NCBI GenBank assembly: GCA_003225465.1
Contig: QIAH01000396.1
Coordinates: 1-32,841, forward strand
Direction: 5' to 3'
Length of the DNA: 32,841 nucleotides
Source: Acidobacteriota bacterium
GTDB lineage: Bacteria > Acidobacteriota > Terriglobia > Terriglobales > Acidobacteriaceae
Position 1 is the stretch's first letter, and the number at the start of each line of letters is the position of its first letter. A program made the translations under genes and the position numbers. The notes under the pieces are model-generated. The model saw only the letters and a program-made list of their open reading frames with translations. It had not been told where the DNA came from and did not search any database. Of this stretch, positions 1,167 to 19,849 are shown piece after piece.

Positions 1167-1690
1167 AGCTGCTGCAATTGCTGCCGATCGGAAACTTCGA
1201 CGGTGGGCTGTTGCGGGAATTGGCTCCCCTGATGGCGAATCTTTTCCGCATCCCCACCGAGGTGCTGGCGGTGCGCCTGGACCCGGAGTTTGCGTACCAT
1301 GGCGAAAGACAACAGTTCCACTCATCCGAGATCCTGCAGGCCATGCAACGCTACGTGGAACCAGATTCCTGGCGCGTGCTGGGCCTCACGAGCGTGGATT
1401 TGTATATACCCATTCTGACGTTTGTGTTCGGCGAGGCCCAGATTGGCGGACCTTGCGGTGTGGTTTCCATCCACCGGTTGCGCCAGGAGTTCTATGGGCT
1501 GCCGCCCGACCTCGATCTCCTGCGCCAACGTCTGGCGAAAGAAGCTGTGCATGAGGTCGGACACACTCTCGACCTTACCCATTGCGAAGACTATCAATGC
1601 GCGATGGCGCCCTCGCATGCGGTCGAGTGGATCGATCTGAAGGAAAGCGCGCTGTGCGAGGCATGTCAGGCGCGGATATTTGTGGGGTAA
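1163..1690 (+). CDS. Archaemetzincin-family zinc metalloprotease
   Basis: A predicted cytosolic zinc peptidase of the archaemetzincin family (175 aa, full length for the small prokaryotic type; no signal peptide). The catalytic motif is clear: H130-E131, H134 and H140 as zinc ligands with E131 as the base. It is followed by C141, C146, M148 and a terminal C165-x2-C168 pair, which form the structural zinc site typical of this family. One deviation is visible: the motif reads HEVGHTLDLTH, so the glycine normally found in HExxHxxGxxH is Asp137. The Met-to-Cys spacing is 16 residues against the roughly 17 of the published family pattern. Physiological substrates of prokaryotic members are not established. 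It overlaps the sigma-54 regulator by 4 nt (ATGA), which suggests co-transcription. Family call is firm; function is open. Confidence 0.85.
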   Translation: MKLLQLLPIGNFDGGLLRELAPLMANLFRIPTEVLAVRLDPEFAYHGERQQFHSSEILQAMQRYVEPDSWRVLGLTSVDLYIPILTFVFGEAQIGGPCGVVSIHRLRQEFYGLPPDLDLLRQRLAKEAVHEVGHTLDLTHCEDYQCAMAPSHAVEWIDLKESALCEACQARIFVG

Positions 1691-1856
1691 CCTTGCATTC
1701 GTCGCAATGCCTACCGTTGCGCCGGCGACGATTTTTCGGCAGTCATGCTGATCGTTCGTCGTTTCTTACGTTTCCCGATTCATGCAGAATCCCCACACGC
1801 AGTTAGTTGACCCATTGTTTTCAGCGCACATCGTAGCCAACCGCACTCGTCGAAGC

Positions 1857-1873
1857 TCGGCACGCGACGTGCA
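1857..1873 (+). promoter_or_regulatory. Possible sigma-54 promoter ahead of the Cys-rich pair
   Basis: The stretch TCGGCACGCGACGTGCA has GG and GC separated by 10 nt and agrees with the -24/-12 consensus TGGCACG-N4-TTGCA except for two bases. A start about 12 nt downstream would give a leader of roughly 50 nt for the gene at 1937. The same bases form a short inverted repeat (GCACG-CGA-CGTGC), so it could instead be an operator or chance. The adjacent sigma-54 activator makes the idea more attractive. Inference only. Confidence 0.28.
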
Positions 1874-1936
1874 CAAACTCTGTCTTTCAGCTCTTGAGAA
1901 GACTCGAACGAAGTCTGCTCATGAAGGACAGTCGTC

Positions 1937-2281
1937 ATGCTGTACAAATGCGCGAACGAGGCTTGCAACACACCCTTCCGGCGCTTGCGGGAGGGGAAAC
2001 TGTTTCAGGTTGAGACCGAATACTTTCCTGGACGAAGACCTGTTTCAAACATGCAGCGCAAGGCGCGGCCGGCTCGTCGCATCGAGCACTACTGGCTCTG
2101 TGATGCTTGCTCCCCGTTTGTCACGCTTACCTTCGACCGCCAGCGGGGTGTGATTACCGTTCCCTTGGCGGATGGATCCGGAATGAAGACGGTCAAACTC
2201 GTATCGATGGACGGGGCTCCGTCGGCGGTAGGATTCGATGATTCCTCCCGTCAACCTGCGCTGCACGAGGTGCAGAAATGA
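1937..2281 (+). CDS. Small Cys4 zinc-ribbon-like protein, function unknown
   Basis: A 114-residue soluble protein with two cysteine pairs: C5-x4-C10 at the very N-terminus (KCANEAC) and a C-x2-C pair (LCDAC) near residue 75. Together they could make one zinc knuckle. I recognise this N-terminal pattern from small proteins in Acidobacteria but know no function. The start is supported by AAGGA 8 nt upstream of the ATG. The stop overlaps the next start as ATGA, so the two genes are coupled. The 246 bp upstream (1691-1936) carries no gene, only the weak sigma-54-like site noted separately. Possible roles (DNA binding or a protein adaptor) are guesses. Confidence 0.7.
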   Translation: MLYKCANEACNTPFRRLREGKLFQVETEYFPGRRPVSNMQRKARPARRIEHYWLCDACSPFVTLTFDRQRGVITVPLADGSGMKTVKLVSMDGAPSAVGFDDSSRQPALHEVQK

Positions 2282-2775
2282 CGGACCGAGAACCAGTGTT
2301 CTGCACAATTTGTCTCACGGCTGGAAAGAACGACGAGCAGTGGTTTCTGTTGGTCGAGAACCGTTGGACGGACCGGCTGAAAATTCTAAGCTGGCATGAC
2401 GAGTTGGCTTCCAATCCTGGATTTCACGCGGCCTGTTGCGCCGCCCACGTGCAACAGCTTGTGATCCACTGGATGACCACCGGAACCCTCGATTATCCGT
2501 TTGCCCGCACCAAAGATTGCGCCCACGGCCCGGTGAGCCAGAGGCCTGCGCATCGGTCGTCCATCAAGCAAGAGCCCGACATCAGCGGCGCAGAAGTGCT
2601 GGGAGAGCTAGCTGTTCATCGCGAAAGCATCGACAGAATTCTGGTCGAGAGCCCGGCTTCTCTAGGTGCCATGCTCTCTGCGTTACAGGCTGCATTACCC
2701 GAGCAGGTCGATCGTTCCGAAATCGCCGAGCAGGAAAACCCGGAGTGTGACGCCTACGCTTTGACGGAGGTTTAG
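2278..2775 (+). CDS. Small Cys/His-rich protein coupled to the zinc-ribbon gene
   Basis: A 165-residue protein of unknown function. The N-terminal half has a CTIC pair (C9, C12) and a second cluster CCAAH (C53, C54, H57), enough ligands for one zinc site. The C-terminal half (from about residue 90) is low in hydrophobics and looks like a helical or disordered tail. There is no signal peptide. It begins inside the stop codon of the preceding Cys4 protein (ATGA overlap), so the pair is one transcription and translation unit. It ends 23 bp from the convergent DUF2252 gene, with no recognisable terminator in that gap. The coupled arrangement suggests that the two proteins act together, but nothing in the sequence says on what. 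Confidence 0.65.
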   Translation: MTDREPVFCTICLTAGKNDEQWFLLVENRWTDRLKILSWHDELASNPGFHAACCAAHVQQLVIHWMTTGTLDYPFARTKDCAHGPVSQRPAHRSSIKQEPDISGAEVLGELAVHRESIDRILVESPASLGAMLSALQAALPEQVDRSEIAEQENPECDAYALTEV

Positions 2776-2798: not shown

Positions 2799-3887
2799 CT
2801 ATCCGTCGACGCGGGCCTTCCGCCAAGCTTGCCAATCTTCATTGACGGCGGCCACCATTTCCCGAGCGGCGGCATACAGCCAATTCGGCTTCTGGTTTTT
2901 GAGGTGCTTGCGGATTTCCCTGGCGGCGTTGCGATTCCCTAGATGGATATTCGCTGTTTCCCATCCCATGGAGAAAAGCAGACGGCACTCGTCGCGGTTC
3001 TTGGGGAGTACGGCGAGTTCGATACGCGAACAGTGCGGGGAGAGGCGCCGGACAATCCAGCGGCCACGCAGTTGAACGAACGGATCCGGACAACGTACCG
3101 CCCGCGATAAGACTGCCTGGTACCAGAGCTCAACCGGACCGGGAAGATCGTAGGCCCAATATACCGAGGAGGGCACGAGCATCTTGGCTTCGCGCGCGAT
3201 CCGGCCACCATGGAATTCGGCTACGGCAACGAAGCGCTGATGCCCAAGGCTACCCAATCCTGCTACCCGGCGAGCGAGACGATATTGCAGGTGCGAATCG
3301 GGCAGCAGGTGTTCGACCGCCTCACGAGCGGTGGGAGAGATCTCCCCCCGGACAGAAGGCAGAGTGTCCATCTTCGTCCAAAACCGATCTGGGTCGCGCA
3401 ATTCGTTCAGGGCGATCAAGCGCAGCCATTTGTAACCCTCCTCCAGCACGAAAGGCCTTCCGCTTTCCGTTAGAGACTTGGTATAGCCATCAAGAATTTC
3501 CGCGCATGCATCCTTCCCAGACGCCGCAAGATGACTGTCCGTGATCGCCAGCAGCGCACTGCTTGCCAGGCGCACCAGGTCGTTCGTGTAAGGAAAGGTC
3601 GCAGCTTCATCAAAGTCGTTCACGCCCCAGATGAGACGCCCTTCCACATCCCGCCAGGTGCCGAAGTTTTCGATGTGCAGGTCGCCTACGGAAAGAATCT
3701 GGGGAGCCTTATTTGCGGCCGGACACACATCCGGCCAGATCTGCACCCAGCGGTAGAACGTGGCGCGCAGAAAGGGAAACACCGCTTCCGCCATCCGTTT
3801 GTGCTTCAGGCGCAGATCCGCCTCGACCACCGTGGTATGCGACTTGAGCCAATCCTCGTAACGAGATGTGGCCTTGACGATATTCAT
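2799..3887 (-). CDS. DUF2252 family protein
   Basis: A 362-residue protein of the DUF2252 family, which has a kinase-like fold signature but no settled function. The family core is plain: VGDLHIENFG, then VNDFDEA and the downstream TNDLVRLASS, equivalent to a phosphotransferase catalytic loop (D-H-x-x-N) and metal-binding Asp. It has no signal peptide or membrane segments. The open frame extends to 4088, but that extra 67-residue stretch translates part of a dispersed intergenic repeat (4022-4071) and reads unlike a protein, so I start at the ATG at 3887 (MNIVKATSRYEDWL), where family-like sequence begins. The Shine-Dalgarno is weak at this start. It is convergent with the Cys-rich pair and lies downstream of the ftsK terminator, so it probably has its own promoter. 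Confidence 0.82.
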   Translation of the reverse strand: MNIVKATSRYEDWLKSHTTVVEADLRLKHKRMAEAVFPFLRATFYRWVQIWPDVCPAANKAPQILSVGDLHIENFGTWRDVEGRLIWGVNDFDEAATFPYTNDLVRLASSALLAITDSHLAASGKDACAEILDGYTKSLTESGRPFVLEEGYKWLRLIALNELRDPDRFWTKMDTLPSVRGEISPTAREAVEHLLPDSHLQYRLARRVAGLGSLGHQRFVAVAEFHGGRIAREAKMLVPSSVYWAYDLPGPVELWYQAVLSRAVRCPDPFVQLRGRWIVRRLSPHCSRIELAVLPKNRDECRLLFSMGWETANIHLGNRNAAREIRKHLKNQKPNWLYAAAREMVAAVNEDWQAWRKARVDG

Positions 3888-14265: not shown

Positions 14266-14299
14266 ACCGTCGTCCTACCGCAACCGTCGTCCTACCGCA
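14266..14299. repeat. 17-nt tandem duplication spanning the dapD stop codon
   Basis: Two exact copies of ACCGTCGTCCTACCGCA (14266-14282 and 14283-14299). The second contains the dapD stop (14292-14294) and its last codons; the first repeats them downstream. Confidence 0.9.
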
Positions 14300-15113
14300 A
14301 CCACTCCTCCAATTCGATCCCGCGATCCGTCTTCTCGTCGCGATACTTCACGATGACCGGCGTGTACAACGACAAATTCCAGTCCGGCCCTTTTTTGACC
14401 GCACGCGATCCCGGCACCACCACCGCATTCTCCGGCACTTCCAGCGGCTTCTCGCCTGAGGCCCGATACACTTCTCCGCGCACGAGGTCATAAAGTGGAG
14501 TTGACCGCGTCAGGATCGTCCCTGCTCCAAGCACCGCCCGCGCTCGCACCAGCGTGCCCTCGTAAACCCCGCAATTTCCGCCCACCAGCACGTCGTCTTC
14601 GATGATCACCGGCGCCGCATTCACCGGCTCGAGCACGCCGCCAATCTGCGCCGCCGCGCTCAGGTGCACGCGCTTCCCGATTTGCGCGCACGATCCGACC
14701 AGAGCGTGCGAGTCCACCATCGTGCCCTCATCCACGTAGGCGCCGGCGTTGATGAACATGGGCGGCATACAAATGACGGACGGCGCCACATACGATCCCT
14801 CGCGCACTGACGAGCCGCCCGGAACGACCCGTACGCGATCCGCAACCGAAAAGCGCCGGGGAGGGAAGGTGTCCTTGTCCACAAATGACAAGCCGTTGCC
14901 CATCTCCGCCAGTTCGCCCAGCCGAAATCCCAGAAGAATGCCCTGCTTCACCCACGCATTGACCACCCATCGCCCATCTTTTTTCTCAGCCGCGCGAACC
15001 TTGCCCTGCGTCAGTGCGCCGCGAAATTCCAGAAACGTCTGCCGGGCCTCGGGATTGCGCTCCACTTCCCCCGATGAAGCAAGCCGCTCGATTGAAGCTT
15101 TCAGGGATTTCAT
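14292..15113 (-). CDS. dapD: 2,3,4,5-tetrahydropyridine-2,6-dicarboxylate N-succinyltransferase
   Basis: Transfers succinyl from succinyl-CoA to tetrahydrodipicolinate, committing the pathway to the succinylase branch of lysine/meso-DAP synthesis. At 273 aa it is the usual length of the Gram-negative form. The N-terminal helical domain is followed by left-handed beta-helix hexapeptide repeats (from about 105 to 225, with [40 protein letters not shown] and [12 protein letters not shown]). The presence of dapD predicts that dapC/argD and dapE lie elsewhere. It is last in the asd-lysC-dapB-dapA-dapD series. Its C-terminal codons and stop are tandemly duplicated just downstream, without changing the frame. 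Confidence 0.95.
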
Positions 15114-15268: not shown

Positions 15269-16396
15269 TCAAATGCACTTGCACTCGCTGCGAATCAGCA
15301 CTCCTTGCATGTCGTGCGCGACCTGGCGAGCCTCGGCCAGTGTCGCATAAGGACCATGCCAGCGCGCATGATTGGCATCGTGCCCCGCCGGACGTCCCTT
15401 GCCGTGATTGCATTGCCCGCAAGTGGAACGATGCAGCACAATCTTGTGCGGGCCCGCCAGCCAGTTCTCATACACGAAGAACTCCGCCGTTTCCGGAGTC
15501 GGCGCGGCCGGTTTCGCAATCAAGCCCACCTCGGTTGCGACCTTCAGCAACTTCGAACGCGTATCCCGGCGCATTGGTAGAAGCGGCAGCCGGTAAACTT
15601 CCTCAATCCGCCCAAGCATGGCCAACACTGCTTTCACCGGCAGCGGGTTCGACTCGATAAAGTTGGTCTGCATCAGAGGCAAGTACTTGCGATGGATGCT
15701 GCGCGCCGTGACCCAGTCGTTGGAAAGCGCCGCCCGCGTCATCGCCGCCATTTCCGCCGGAATTTCATTTGAAGCGACGGAGATAATCCCCACTCCTCCC
15801 AGCGCGATGAGTGGCAGCGTGATGGCATCATCTCCGGAGAACACTAGAAAGTGTTCCGGCACCACGTTCAGTACCTCGGCAATTTGTGCAATGTTGCCGC
15901 TGGCCTCCTTCACGCCCAGAACGTTCGGCACTTCCGCCAGCCGCGCCAACGTTCCCGGCTCGATGTTCGCTCCTGTGCGCCCCGGCACGTTGTAGAGAAG
16001 AATCGGCTTGCCAACTGCTTCCGCGATCGCACGGAAATGCCGGTACTGTCCTTCCTGGGTGGGCTTGTTGTAGTAAGGCGAGGCGGTGAGGATCGCGTCG
16101 ACTCCCGGCCGTGCCGCGACTTCCTTGGCCTTCTCAACCGCATCCTGCGTGGAGTTCGACGTCGCCCCAGCAACAATCGGCACGCGTCCAGCCGTCACCT
16201 CGATCGTTACGTCAATGACGCGCAGCCATTCGTCGTGCGACAGAGTTGGAGTCTCGCCCGTGGTCCCGCAGGGAATCAGAAAATCAATGCCCGACTCAAG
16301 CTGCCAAGCGACCAGGTTGCGCAGGGCAGTTTCGTCAATGGCGCCGTCCTGATGAAACGGGGTGACCAGCGCGGTACCGCATCCACGCAGTTGCAT
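15269..16396 (-). CDS. dapA: 4-hydroxy-tetrahydrodipicolinate synthase with extra Cys-rich C-terminal domain
   Basis: Condenses pyruvate with aspartate semialdehyde. Residues 1-293 are a complete DapA barrel: T45-T46 in CGTTGETP, Y135 and R140 in LLYNVPGRTG, and the Schiff-base lysine K163 in GVKEASGN. DapA proteins normally end near here (about 290-300 aa). This one continues through a Pro/Ala linker (294-304) into about 70 residues with HRSTCGQCNHG (C326, C329), the motif RWHGPYATLAEA, and a final ECKC (C372, C374). The frame is continuous. The tail resembles, from memory, small stand-alone Cys-rich proteins; four Cys and nearby His could bind zinc. Whether it regulates the enzyme or is an accidental fusion is unknown. 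Confidence 0.93.
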   Translation of the reverse strand: MQLRGCGTALVTPFHQDGAIDETALRNLVAWQLESGIDFLIPCGTTGETPTLSHDEWLRVIDVTIEVTAGRVPIVAGATSNSTQDAVEKAKEVAARPGVDAILTASPYYNKPTQEGQYRHFRAIAEAVGKPILLYNVPGRTGANIEPGTLARLAEVPNVLGVKEASGNIAQIAEVLNVVPEHFLVFSGDDAITLPLIALGGVGIISVASNEIPAEMAAMTRAALSNDWVTARSIHRKYLPLMQTNFIESNPLPVKAVLAMLGRIEEVYRLPLLPMRRDTRSKLLKVATEVGLIAKPAAPTPETAEFFVYENWLAGPHKIVLHRSTCGQCNHGKGRPAGHDANHARWHGPYATLAEARQVAHDMQGVLIRSECKCI

Positions 16397-16501: not shown

Positions 16502-17182
16502 TCACAGCTCGCGCCAAATATCCTTGAACTCGAACATTCCCTTATGCCCACTGAGCCACTCGGCGCCGAGCACGGCGCCCTCCGCATAGCCCTGCCGGGA
16601 TTTGGCGTCGTGACAGAGATAAATCCGGTCATTGGGCGAATCAAAAATCAGCTCGTGTAGCCCGACCACATCGCCCTCGCGAAACGAAGTGATTTCCAGC
16701 TCCGCGCCAGACTTCTCCTTCACGATCCTCTGCATGACCAGCGCCGTGCCCGAGGGCGCGTCTTTCTTCGTATGGTGATGCCTTTCGAAGATCTGTCCGG
16801 AGTACCCATGACTGGCAGCTTCGGCCACAGTGCGAACCGTCTCGAAGAACAGATTCACGCCAATCGAAAAATTTGCCCCGTACAGAAATCCGATGCCGGC
16901 CTGTTCTACCTCCGGCCGCAGATTACCAAGATGCGAATACCATCCAGTCGTGCCCACCACCATGTTTTTTTTCTCGTGAAGGCAAGCCTTGATGTTATCG
17001 GCCACCGCGGCCGGCGTGGTGAAGTCGATCACCACGTCCACATTCTGCAGCGTCGCTGTGGTCAGAGCCTTGCCTTTCTCGTTGTCGTTCGCTCCCAGCA
17101 CCTGAACGTGATGATGCCGCTCGCGTGCATACTGCGCGACCAACGACCCGGTCTTCCCACGACCCAGAACAAGAAAATTCAT
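16502..17182 (-). CDS. dapB: 4-hydroxy-tetrahydrodipicolinate reductase
   Basis: NAD(P)H-dependent reductase following DapA in lysine/DAP synthesis. At 226 aa it is shorter than the E. coli enzyme (about 270). The Rossmann start is the abbreviated LGRGKTG, lacking the usual GAxGRMG. The substrate-binding and catalytic region is well kept: ERHHHTKKDAPSGTA (H135-H137, K140, then DAPSGTA 141-147) and GANFSIGVN (103-110). It lies 107 bp after lysC and 105 bp before dapA in the same direction. The shortened form is seen in several phyla, so I do not read it as damage. Confidence 0.93.
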   Translation of the reverse strand: MNFLVLGRGKTGSLVAQYARERHHHVQVLGANDNEKGKALTTATLQNVDVVIDFTTPAAVADNIKACLHEKKNMVVGTTGWYSHLGNLRPEVEQAGIGFLYGANFSIGVNLFFETVRTVAEAASHGYSGQIFERHHHTKKDAPSGTALVMQRIVKEKSGAELEITSFREGDVVGLHELIFDSPNDRIYLCHDAKSRQGYAEGAVLGAEWLSGHKGMFEFKDIWREL

Positions 17183-17289: not shown

Positions 17290-18663
17290 CTAAGCGAACA
17301 CCCCGGCATCCAGTTCCGAGAAAAATGCCGAGTGCAATCGGCGCACGACCCCGGGCACGTCCTCTTCCTCGATCACGAATGTCAGGTTAATTTCCGAGGC
17401 ACCCTGGGAAATCATTCGCACCTTCAAATCCGACAACTCTCCAAACACCCGCGCCGCAATGCCCGGCGTCTCCCGCAAATTTTCGCCCACCAGGCAGACG
17501 ATCGCCTTCCGCCCTTCATATTTTACGTCCGCCAGCTTTGCCAAATCCGCCGCCAGTGCCGGAATGGCCTCATTCGAGTCGACGGTCAACGAAACACTGA
17601 CCTCTGAAGTCGACACCACATCCACCGCCACTTTATGTCGGTCGAAAGCCTCGAAGATTGCCTTCAGAAACCCATGCGCCAGCAGCATCCGAGGCGCGGC
17701 GACGTTCACAATGGTGATGCGTTTTTTGGCAGCAATGGCCTTGAAAATGTTCTTGCAGTGTGGCGCCCGCGCAGTGATCTTGGTCCCCTCGCAGGAAGCA
17801 TTCCGCGAATTCAAAATGTACACGGGAATATTCTTCTGGACGGCCGGGAGCACAGTGGCCGGGTGCAAAACCTTCGCGCCGAAGTAGGCCAGTTCCGCCG
17901 CCTCATCGAAGCTGATCACGCGAATGCGGTGCGCATCCGGGCAAAGATTCGGATCGGTGGTCATCATTCCGTCCACATCCGTCCAGATCTCGATGGCCTC
18001 GGCATTCAACCCGGCACCGACAATCGCCGCCGAAAAATCCGAGCCGCCGCGCCCGATCGTGGTGGTGACGCCATTGCGCGTCGCCCCAATGAATCCGCCC
18101 ATCACCGGAACGCGCCCGCCTTCGACCAGCGGCTTTAATTTGAGATTGAGCTGCTCGTTGGTGTCTTCGAAGAGTGGAACGGCGCGCATGTGCGTGCTGT
18201 CGGTCACGATGCATTGCCGCGAATCGACCAGCGATGCCTTCAGTCCACGCGCCGAAAACGCTTCGCTGACAATCCTGCTGGAAAGCAATTCACCATAAGC
18301 TGCGACGTGATCGGTGGTCCGCGGAGTCAGTTCGCCCACCGCGGCAATCCCGCGCAGCAGTTCGTCGAGCGCGTCGAACTCGCCTTCCAGTTCGCTGTGA
18401 AAGCGCGTGAAAACGCCGGTTCCCAGCAATTCTCCCGCGGTGTTGTAATGCCGTTCGCGCAATCCGCGCGAAAGCCCGAGGGCCGTTTCTCGATCGCCAG
18501 CCCCGGCCGCCTGCGCCATCTTGAGAAGCGTGTCGGTGACCTTGGCCATGGCGCTCACCACGACCACCGGCTTTTTCGCCGCTCGCCCTTTGACGATCGA
18601 AGCAGTGCGATCGATCGCCTTGGCGTCCTCCACCGAGGTCCCGCCAAATTTCATGACGATCAT
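17290..18663 (-). CDS. lysC: Aspartokinase
   Basis: Phosphorylates aspartate, the entry step to lysine, methionine and threonine. At 457 aa it is the monofunctional long form. The kinase signature KFGGTSV is at residues 5-11, RGGSDFSA binds nucleotide/phosphate, and WTDVDGMMTTDP is conserved. Two C-terminal ACT domains follow (from about 305; STSEVSVSLTVD and SQGASEINLTFVI), so allosteric control by lysine or threonine is likely. A second ATG lies 3 codons in; the first gives the family's usual start. It lies between asd and dapB, 133 and 107 bp from them, with REP-type repeats in both gaps. No lysine riboswitch was recognised upstream. Confidence 0.95.
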   Translation of the reverse strand: MIVMKFGGTSVEDAKAIDRTASIVKGRAAKKPVVVVSAMAKVTDTLLKMAQAAGAGDRETALGLSRGLRERHYNTAGELLGTGVFTRFHSELEGEFDALDELLRGIAAVGELTPRTTDHVAAYGELLSSRIVSEAFSARGLKASLVDSRQCIVTDSTHMRAVPLFEDTNEQLNLKLKPLVEGGRVPVMGGFIGATRNGVTTTIGRGGSDFSAAIVGAGLNAEAIEIWTDVDGMMTTDPNLCPDAHRIRVISFDEAAELAYFGAKVLHPATVLPAVQKNIPVYILNSRNASCEGTKITARAPHCKNIFKAIAAKKRITIVNVAAPRMLLAHGFLKAIFEAFDRHKVAVDVVSTSEVSVSLTVDSNEAIPALAADLAKLADVKYEGRKAIVCLVGENLRETPGIAARVFGELSDLKVRMISQGASEINLTFVIEEEDVPGVVRRLHSAFFSELDAGVFA

Positions 18664-18796: not shown

Positions 18797-19849
18797 TCAC
18801 CCGAGATATCCTTGCGCTTTCAGCAACTCTGCATTGAGTAGAGCCGCTCCGGCCGCGCCGCGAATGGTGTTATGCGAGAGCACGGTGAATTTCCAGTCCA
18901 GCACTTTGCAGGGACGCAAACGCCCCACGGTGGTGGTCATGCCCGCGCCCCGATCCGCGTCAAAACGCGGTTGCGGACGATCGTCCGCTTCCAAATAGAC
19001 CACTGGCTGTGCCGGGGCGCTCGGCAGCCGCATTTTTTGCGGCTCAGCCGTATACGCATTCCAGGCGGAGATGATTTCCTCCGCCTTCGCCTTCTTCTTC
19101 ATCCGAACCGAAACCGATTCCGTATGGCCGTCCTCGACCGCGACCCGATTGCACTGCGCGCTCATCGCAAAGCTGCCCGGAACAATGCCGGCGCCATTCA
19201 GTTTTCCCAGCAGCTTGAGAGTTTCTTCCTCCATCTTCTCTTCTTCTTTTGCGATATAGGGAATCACATTGCCCAGGATATCGAGCGAAGCCACACCCGG
19301 GTAGCCCGCGCCGCTGACTGCTTGCATGGTCACGGCCATCACCGTCTCCAGACCAAACTGTTTATCGAGCGGAGCCAGGGCCAGCACCAGGCCAATCGCA
19401 GAGCAATTTGGATTTGTAACGACAAACCCGCCCGACTTCTTTCGCCACGCCTGCGTCTCAATCAGCTTGACATGCCCGGCATTCACCTCCGGGATCACCA
19501 GCGGCACATCTTTTGCCATGCGCAGGGCGCTAGAGTTCGACACCACGGCGCACCCTGCCTGCGCGAAAGCGGGTTCCATTTCCGCGGCGATGCTGGCGTC
19601 GAGCGCCGCGAAAATCACCTTGGGCGCGCCCTCGGGTTTTGCCGGCGAGACCACCATCTTTGCTACTCGCTCTGGAATAGCCGTTTTCAAGCGCCAGCGC
19701 GCTGCCTCGCCATAGGCACGCCCTTCCGAGCGGTCCGACGCGGCCAACCATGCCACCTCGAACCACGGATGGTGTTCCAGCATCTGTACAAAGCGCTGCC
19801 CGACGATGCCGGTGGCGCCAAGAATCCCTACAGGAATTTTTTGGGACAT
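18797..19849 (-). CDS. asd: Aspartate-semialdehyde dehydrogenase
   Basis: Reduces aspartyl phosphate to aspartate semialdehyde. At 350 aa it is of the archaeal/fungal-like class, judged by LGATGIVGQRFV at the NADP site and the catalytic stretch TNPNCSAIG with C149. The conserved VEDGHTES contains a conserved His. It heads the lysine block; its start is preceded by a 183-bp spacer with inverted heptad arrays that separates it from the AI-2E permease gene. The five genes asd-lysC-dapB-dapA-dapD share direction but have gaps of 100-155 bp, so they may be an operon with processed or attenuated segments rather than one tight unit. Confidence 0.95.
   Translation of the reverse strand: MSQKIPVGILGATGIVGQRFVQMLEHHPWFEVAWLAASDRSEGRAYGEAARWRLKTAIPERVAKMVVSPAKPEGAPKVIFAALDASIAAEMEPAFAQAGCAVVSNSSALRMAKDVPLVIPEVNAGHVKLIETQAWRKKSGGFVVTNPNCSAIGLVLALAPLDKQFGLETVMAVTMQAVSGAGYPGVASLDILGNVIPYIAKEEEKMEEETLKLLGKLNGAGIVPGSFAMSAQCNRVAVEDGHTESVSVRMKKKAKAEEIISAWNAYTAEPQKMRLPSAPAQPVVYLEADDRPQPRFDADRGAGMTTTVGRLRPCKVLDWKFTVLSHNTIRGAAGAALLNAELLKAQGYLG

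Follow-up and report, generated by a model that had tools for sequence, protein, structure and literature searches.

4-Hydroxy-tetrahydrodipicolinate synthase (DapA) is a textbook enzyme and antibiotic target that starts the synthesis of lysine and of the cell-wall precursor, and lysine bound at the dimer interface is the usual explanation of how it is controlled. Here we describe a DapA encoded in the window (the whole 32,841-nucleotide stretch of DNA that was analysed) which resembles known members of the family (PF00701, TIGR00674) in its full barrel, its active-site residues, and its operon with asd, lysC, dapB, and dapD. The solved DapA structures that it matched are 289-330 aa long, and no match goes beyond residue 293 of the window protein; none reaches its C-terminal domain of 70 aa, which we refer to below as the tail. 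We found no description of a DapA with an extra domain in the papers and libraries searched. Among described domains, the N-terminal zinc domain of Ada (PF02805) is likewise a small Cys4 domain, in which a short helix precedes a Cys pair, but a profile-profile comparison (hhalign) gave a probability of only 0.8% in local and 0.1% in global mode, and we rejected this relationship. DUF6233 (PF19746), a family of unknown function, weakly matched the C-terminal C-x2-C end of a relative of the tail from Mesorhizobium (E = 0.0053, below the cut-off); only 15 residues were matched, and the window tail itself had no hit. The tail belongs to a family of small Cys proteins that has no name, found free-standing at three loci (L153, L172, and L231) and on plasmids of Bradyrhizobium and Mesorhizobium, for which there was no matching model in the libraries searched. 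The likeness extends to Y-E-x-W in most members, H-x3-C-x2-C, W-x-G-P, a C-terminal [CH]-x(1-2)-C, and a size of 72-74 aa, while the family differs in that no enzyme is attached and the C-terminal pair varies (HRC, HEC, CPFC, CSIC). The locus is a known enzyme with a new domain variant, together with an unnamed Cys-domain family, and is not a new kind of system.

The fusion gene and its operon

The features of the locus are as follows, with the basis of each in brackets.

15269..16396, minus strand: dapA-tail fusion gene, 375 aa (single open frame, stop codon included)
15536..16390, minus strand: DapA (4-hydroxy-tetrahydrodipicolinate synthase) catalytic barrel, residues 3-287 (PF00701, TIGR00674)
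15485..15526, minus strand: variable linker rich in Pro and Ala, residues 291-304 (pN/pS 0.43, linker lengths)
15272..15484, minus strand: C-terminal Cys domain, residues 305-375, with H322, C326, C329, W346-HGP, C372, and C374 (conservation and predicted fold)
15410..15421, minus strand: codons of C326-x2-C329, putative first ligand pair (sequence, conservation)
15275..15283, minus strand: codons of C372-x-C374, putative second ligand pair (conservation; C372 is His in some free-standing relatives)
16502..17182, minus strand: dapB (PF05173 and PF01113; synteny)
17290..18663, minus strand: lysC, aspartate kinase with ACT domains (PF00696, PF22468)
18797..19849, minus strand: asd, aspartate-semialdehyde dehydrogenase (PF01118, PF02774)
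14292..15113, minus strand: dapD, tetrahydrodipicolinate N-succinyltransferase (PF14805 and hexapeptide repeats)

PF00701 matched residues 3-287 of the 375-aa protein with an E-value of 9.7e-87, and its TIGR00674 score of 333.6 bits, against a curated cut-off of 206 bits for this equivalog model, places it among the DapA equivalogs. An alignment of 52 fusions showed that K163, Y135, R140, Y108, and Y109 are invariant in the DapA half, the first three being the Schiff-base lysine and the catalytic Tyr and Arg (K161, Y133, and R138 in E. coli numbering). Judging from this alignment, the catalytic residues of the fusion DapA are intact. The tailed protein is the one canonical DapA of the source genome, the other PF00701 match being a paralogue of 28% identity on contig C153. 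A reading made from the sequence alone (hereafter the sequence-only reading) had described a full DapA barrel followed by a Pro/Ala linker and about 70 Cys-rich residues, and this was confirmed by both the profile matches and the sequence. The stretch that it had singled out, 15269-15520, corresponds to residues 293-375 plus the stop codon, i.e., linker and tail, and the motifs that it had listed (C326-x2-C329, RWHGPY at 345-350, and C372-x-C374) are all present exactly in the tail. The junction was also thought to be free of frameshifts, and there is indeed neither a frameshift nor a stop codon there; GC3 is equal on its two sides (0.71 in DapA and 0.69 in the tail).

At the loci where gene order was checkable, the arrangement asd-lysC-dapB-dapA(-dapD) was the same with and without the tail. 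Close relatives that lack the tail have this operon too, so the wider family can dispense with the tail; we did not find it as a separate gene near any tailless dapA. The DapB of the window is short (226 aa) and its match to DapB_N is modest, and matching stretches of similar length are present in neighbouring genomes.

Conservation of the tail and drift of the linker

The hallmark of the tail is H-x3-C-x2-C ... W-x-G-P ... C-x-C. Searched alone, the tail had no match in Pfam, NCBIfam, PHROGs, PADLOC, or the PDB sequences, and a second copy of the Cys domain was not found in the source genome. Purifying selection acts on the tail almost as strongly as on the catalytic domain: mean pairwise pN/pS is 0.161 in the tail and 0.133 in DapA, against 0.431 in the linker. 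The four Cys, H322, R323, and WHGP are kept in 71 of 71 full-length fusions, and F306, Y309, E310, W312, G315, P316, K318, G332, R335, P336, G338, R357, and LIRSE are also invariant in this set, in which the conservation of two stretches is biased because the sequences were fetched partly with the patterns LIRSECKC and ARWHGP. An unbiased set of 22 rows, assembled with no choice by motif, agrees on the invariant residues with one loss, that of C329 to Tyr in G012; one fused copy (L057) is without C329. We considered an internal start that would yield the tail alone and rejected it, as the nearby start-type codons are limited to two GTG, those of residues 308 and 320, and both fall within the first strands of the domain.

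The linker behaves differently from the domains that it joins. Its length is usually 13-18 residues and reaches 110-116 in two members (G005 and G012), and it drifts in both sequence and length, up to 116 residues, while all four Cys stay. Linkers of this extent suggest that the Cys domain is tethered to the enzyme rather than packed at one fixed place.

Predicted structure and a putative zinc site

An AlphaFold2 model of the tail alone, built without metal, had a mean pLDDT of 87.4 and a pTM of 0.76, with strands at 3-8, 15-20, and 41-47, a helix at 50-59, and a final strand at 65-68 (tail numbering). The tail is thus confidently predicted to be a compact beta-beta-beta-alpha-beta domain that folds by itself. 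The full-length model has a tail with the same elements and a pLDDT of 74-92 over most of its length, but the second half of the barrel is poorly predicted because the alignment is shallow, and the relative placement of barrel and tail in that model is therefore untrustworthy. The tail model had no significant Foldseek match in the PDB (best E = 2.8) or in BFVD, and VIA-align gave a Z of 2.0 at most; the lack of a significant match is no proof of a new fold.

A ligand position at which His replaces Cys usually marks a zinc site. Across tails and relatives the C-terminal pair occurs as CKC, CRC, HRC, HEC, CPFC, or CSIC, so that the third ligand is either Cys or His, and this switching is our main ground for calling the tail zinc-binding. 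Most likely, the tail binds one zinc through C326, C329, C372, and C374. Points against this are that no solved zinc domain matched the fold significantly, that C329 is missing from the fused copy L057, and that the relatives L232 and L233 end in H-x-C only. The earlier suggestion of a metal-binding tail is well supported insofar as Cys conservation, Cys/His switching, and the compact, confident model all point to a separate and probably metal-binding domain.

Distribution and origin of the fusion

A whole-protein search of 25 genomes of the same family, source genome included, recovered the tail in 11 and a DapA of ordinary length in 14. A profile of the tail detected the domain in 85 of 300 genomes of the family and in 33 of 79 genera; in these 85 genomes most of the matches lie in frames of the size of the DapA fusion, among which only the fetched frames were read. 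A scan of GTDB gave 104 relatives, of which 80 were kept; by record title all 80 are from Acidobacteriota, spanning Acidobacteriaceae, Ca. Sulfotelmatobacter, SbA1, and other Terriglobia. The fusion is in frame at 77 of these 80 loci, the remaining three being broken by runs of N, and it is also present in 23 genomes that were found with no choice by motif. The fusion is therefore real and is conserved in one large group of soil Acidobacteria. The sequence-only reading would have been refuted by orthologues in which this length was ordinary and the Cys residues were not conserved; the length is indeed ordinary in part of the family, but the Cys residues are conserved. On a tree of DapA the presence of the tail is explained by two changes, and none of 500 shuffles gave as low a number, which indicates one or two origins of the tail, within a single part of the family. 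As many soil Acidobacteria have this DapA as their only one, an extra domain kept there by selection suggests that a further layer around the DapA step has gone unrecognised.

Relatives of the tail outside DapA

The Cys domain also occurs with no enzyme attached. L153, from another family of the same class, is a free-standing ORF of 73 aa adjoining murA (named by eye), and L231 contains a free-standing stretch of 72 aa, counted from its ATG, near recA. A 74-aa relative (L172, 893-1114, plus strand; IMGVR_UViG_3300028837_004134) lies on a putative viral contig of IMG/VR beside a gene that we judged by eye to have a CHC2-primase-like sequence, and this one intact free-standing copy was the only significant result of our viral and phage searches for the tail. 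Degenerate, unannotated copies are present on plasmids of two rhizobia, Bradyrhizobium sp. 186 (L162, approximately 2492-2623, NZ_CP082165.1) and Mesorhizobium sp. 113-3-3 (L169, approximately 3013-3207, NZ_AP023245.1). Matches to haloarchaeal plasmids (E = 0.5-0.7) were dismissed as noise, as in the one that was read the matched frame is interrupted by a stop and is not that of the annotated genes.

Alignment shows H-x3-C-x2-C, W-x-G-P, and the C-terminal [CH]-x-C in register, which places tails and relatives in one family. H322, C326, C329, W346, G348, and P349 are invariant in a ten-row alignment of the two, in which the identity of the non-fused relatives to the window tail falls to 21-47%. 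The tail therefore defines a small Cys-domain family with no model in the libraries searched, and its free-standing relatives make the function of the Cys domain testable on its own.

Profile matches to L231, L232, and L233 had E-values of 1e-18 to 2e-13. L232 (2913-3515, minus strand) and L233 (2519-2866, minus strand), which we count among the free-standing relatives, represent a diverged branch of the Cys domain, with the pattern YEDRQ...HKLTIH..C..CNAG.G...GKWYGPF...HEC and only H-x-C as the C-terminal pair; in these two genomes the adjoining gene has a weak LolA-like/DUF5686 match. A second fusion architecture is seen at L154 (G146:C16, frame 1471-2355, plus strand), where the Cys domain stands at the N-terminus of a protein of about 290 aa (frame of 295 aa) that has a probable membrane segment.

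Possible roles of the tail

We give a probability of about 50% to the reading that the tail is a docking domain, stabilised by zinc and held by a flexible tether, that was captured by a DapA which is itself normal and complete for catalysis. In this view, a free-standing Cys protein of small size would have been fused once or twice to DapA in one lineage of Terriglobia (Acidobacteriota), leaving the Cys domain hanging on the flexible Pro/Ala linker. As DapA is normally a tetramer, several copies of the tail would be displayed on the enzyme surface, and a zinc-stabilised face that includes the conserved Y309, E310, W312, H322, R323, and W346-HGP may bind another protein or cell component, candidate partners being the next enzyme, DapB, or cell-wall assembly. 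The role of the tail would then be docking rather than the gating of catalysis. We judge docking most likely because the domain is conserved, is predicted to fold by itself, sits on a variable linker, and is shared with free-standing proteins, and because drift of the linker while the Cys stay is not what one would expect of a rigid gate. The coupling of DapA to another protein thus appears to be the reading that fits best, and since close relatives lack the tail in the same operon, any such docking would not be essential in general. It is also possible, though we propose this only tentatively, that an unnamed family of small zinc proteins, whose free-standing members occur in soil bacteria and on mobile elements, was recruited to DapA as a docking or sensing module, giving zinc- or partner-dependent localisation or control across this group of soil Acidobacteria.

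The tail might instead only stabilise the tetramer or shield the C-terminus with no partner involved, and its restriction to one lineage, its dispensability in relatives, and its constant position at the C-terminus of DapA would all agree with such an appendage. We think this unlikely, as H322 and W346-x-GP are common to free-standing relatives in unrelated contexts, which suggests that the domain has a function of its own, and the length of the linker varies greatly.

A second control beside lysine, in which the Cys4 site would sense zinc or an oxidant and alter DapA activity or assembly, seems to us quite improbable. DapA commits the pathway to lysine and diaminopimelate, this lineage keeps a single DapA on which such control could act, and the Cys are conserved beyond the possible folding needs of a 70-aa tail. 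However, the linkers of 110-116 residues in two members are probably disordered, so that a direct link between the tail and the active site is improbable. Paired Cys that swap with His have the look of a structural site, and close tailless relatives have the same operon and much the same residues at the lysine site. The lysine-site motif (TPTLSHDEW and similar) is much the same in tailed and in most close tailless proteins, so the tail is not a lysine switch. We could also rule out that it replaces the lysine site, as the motif is little changed in tailless relatives, and no obvious change at that site goes with the tail. Judged by motif position rather than by alignment, W57 and D85 of the window protein occupy the places of H56 and E84 (E. 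coli numbering). According to PMC10464499, H56 and E84 are needed for lysine inhibition in an engineered enzyme cited there.

That the tail is a small DNA- or RNA-binding module through which DapA moonlights is very doubtful. The tail has several His, Lys, and Arg, its weak viral neighbours in Foldseek (none with E <0.3) include an AP2-like integrase N-terminal domain as well as homing endonucleases that carry NUMOD3 or GIY-YIG domains, L153 has a sub-threshold Pfam match to an integrase DNA-binding domain (E = 0.046), and L172 lies beside the primase-like gene on its putative viral contig; yet all of these matches are insignificant, the net charge of the tail is modest, and we know of no reason why an enzyme of lysine synthesis would bind nucleic acid. 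Finally, the source genome is fragmented (590 contigs), but chance or artefact has a negligible probability, as about 80 independent assemblies carry the same in-frame fusion and the tail has a pN/pS of 0.16: this repeated fusion refutes the assembly error at the junction that the sequence-only reading had entertained and, together with purifying selection, rules out a frameshift or an overlong frame read through with no selection on the tail.
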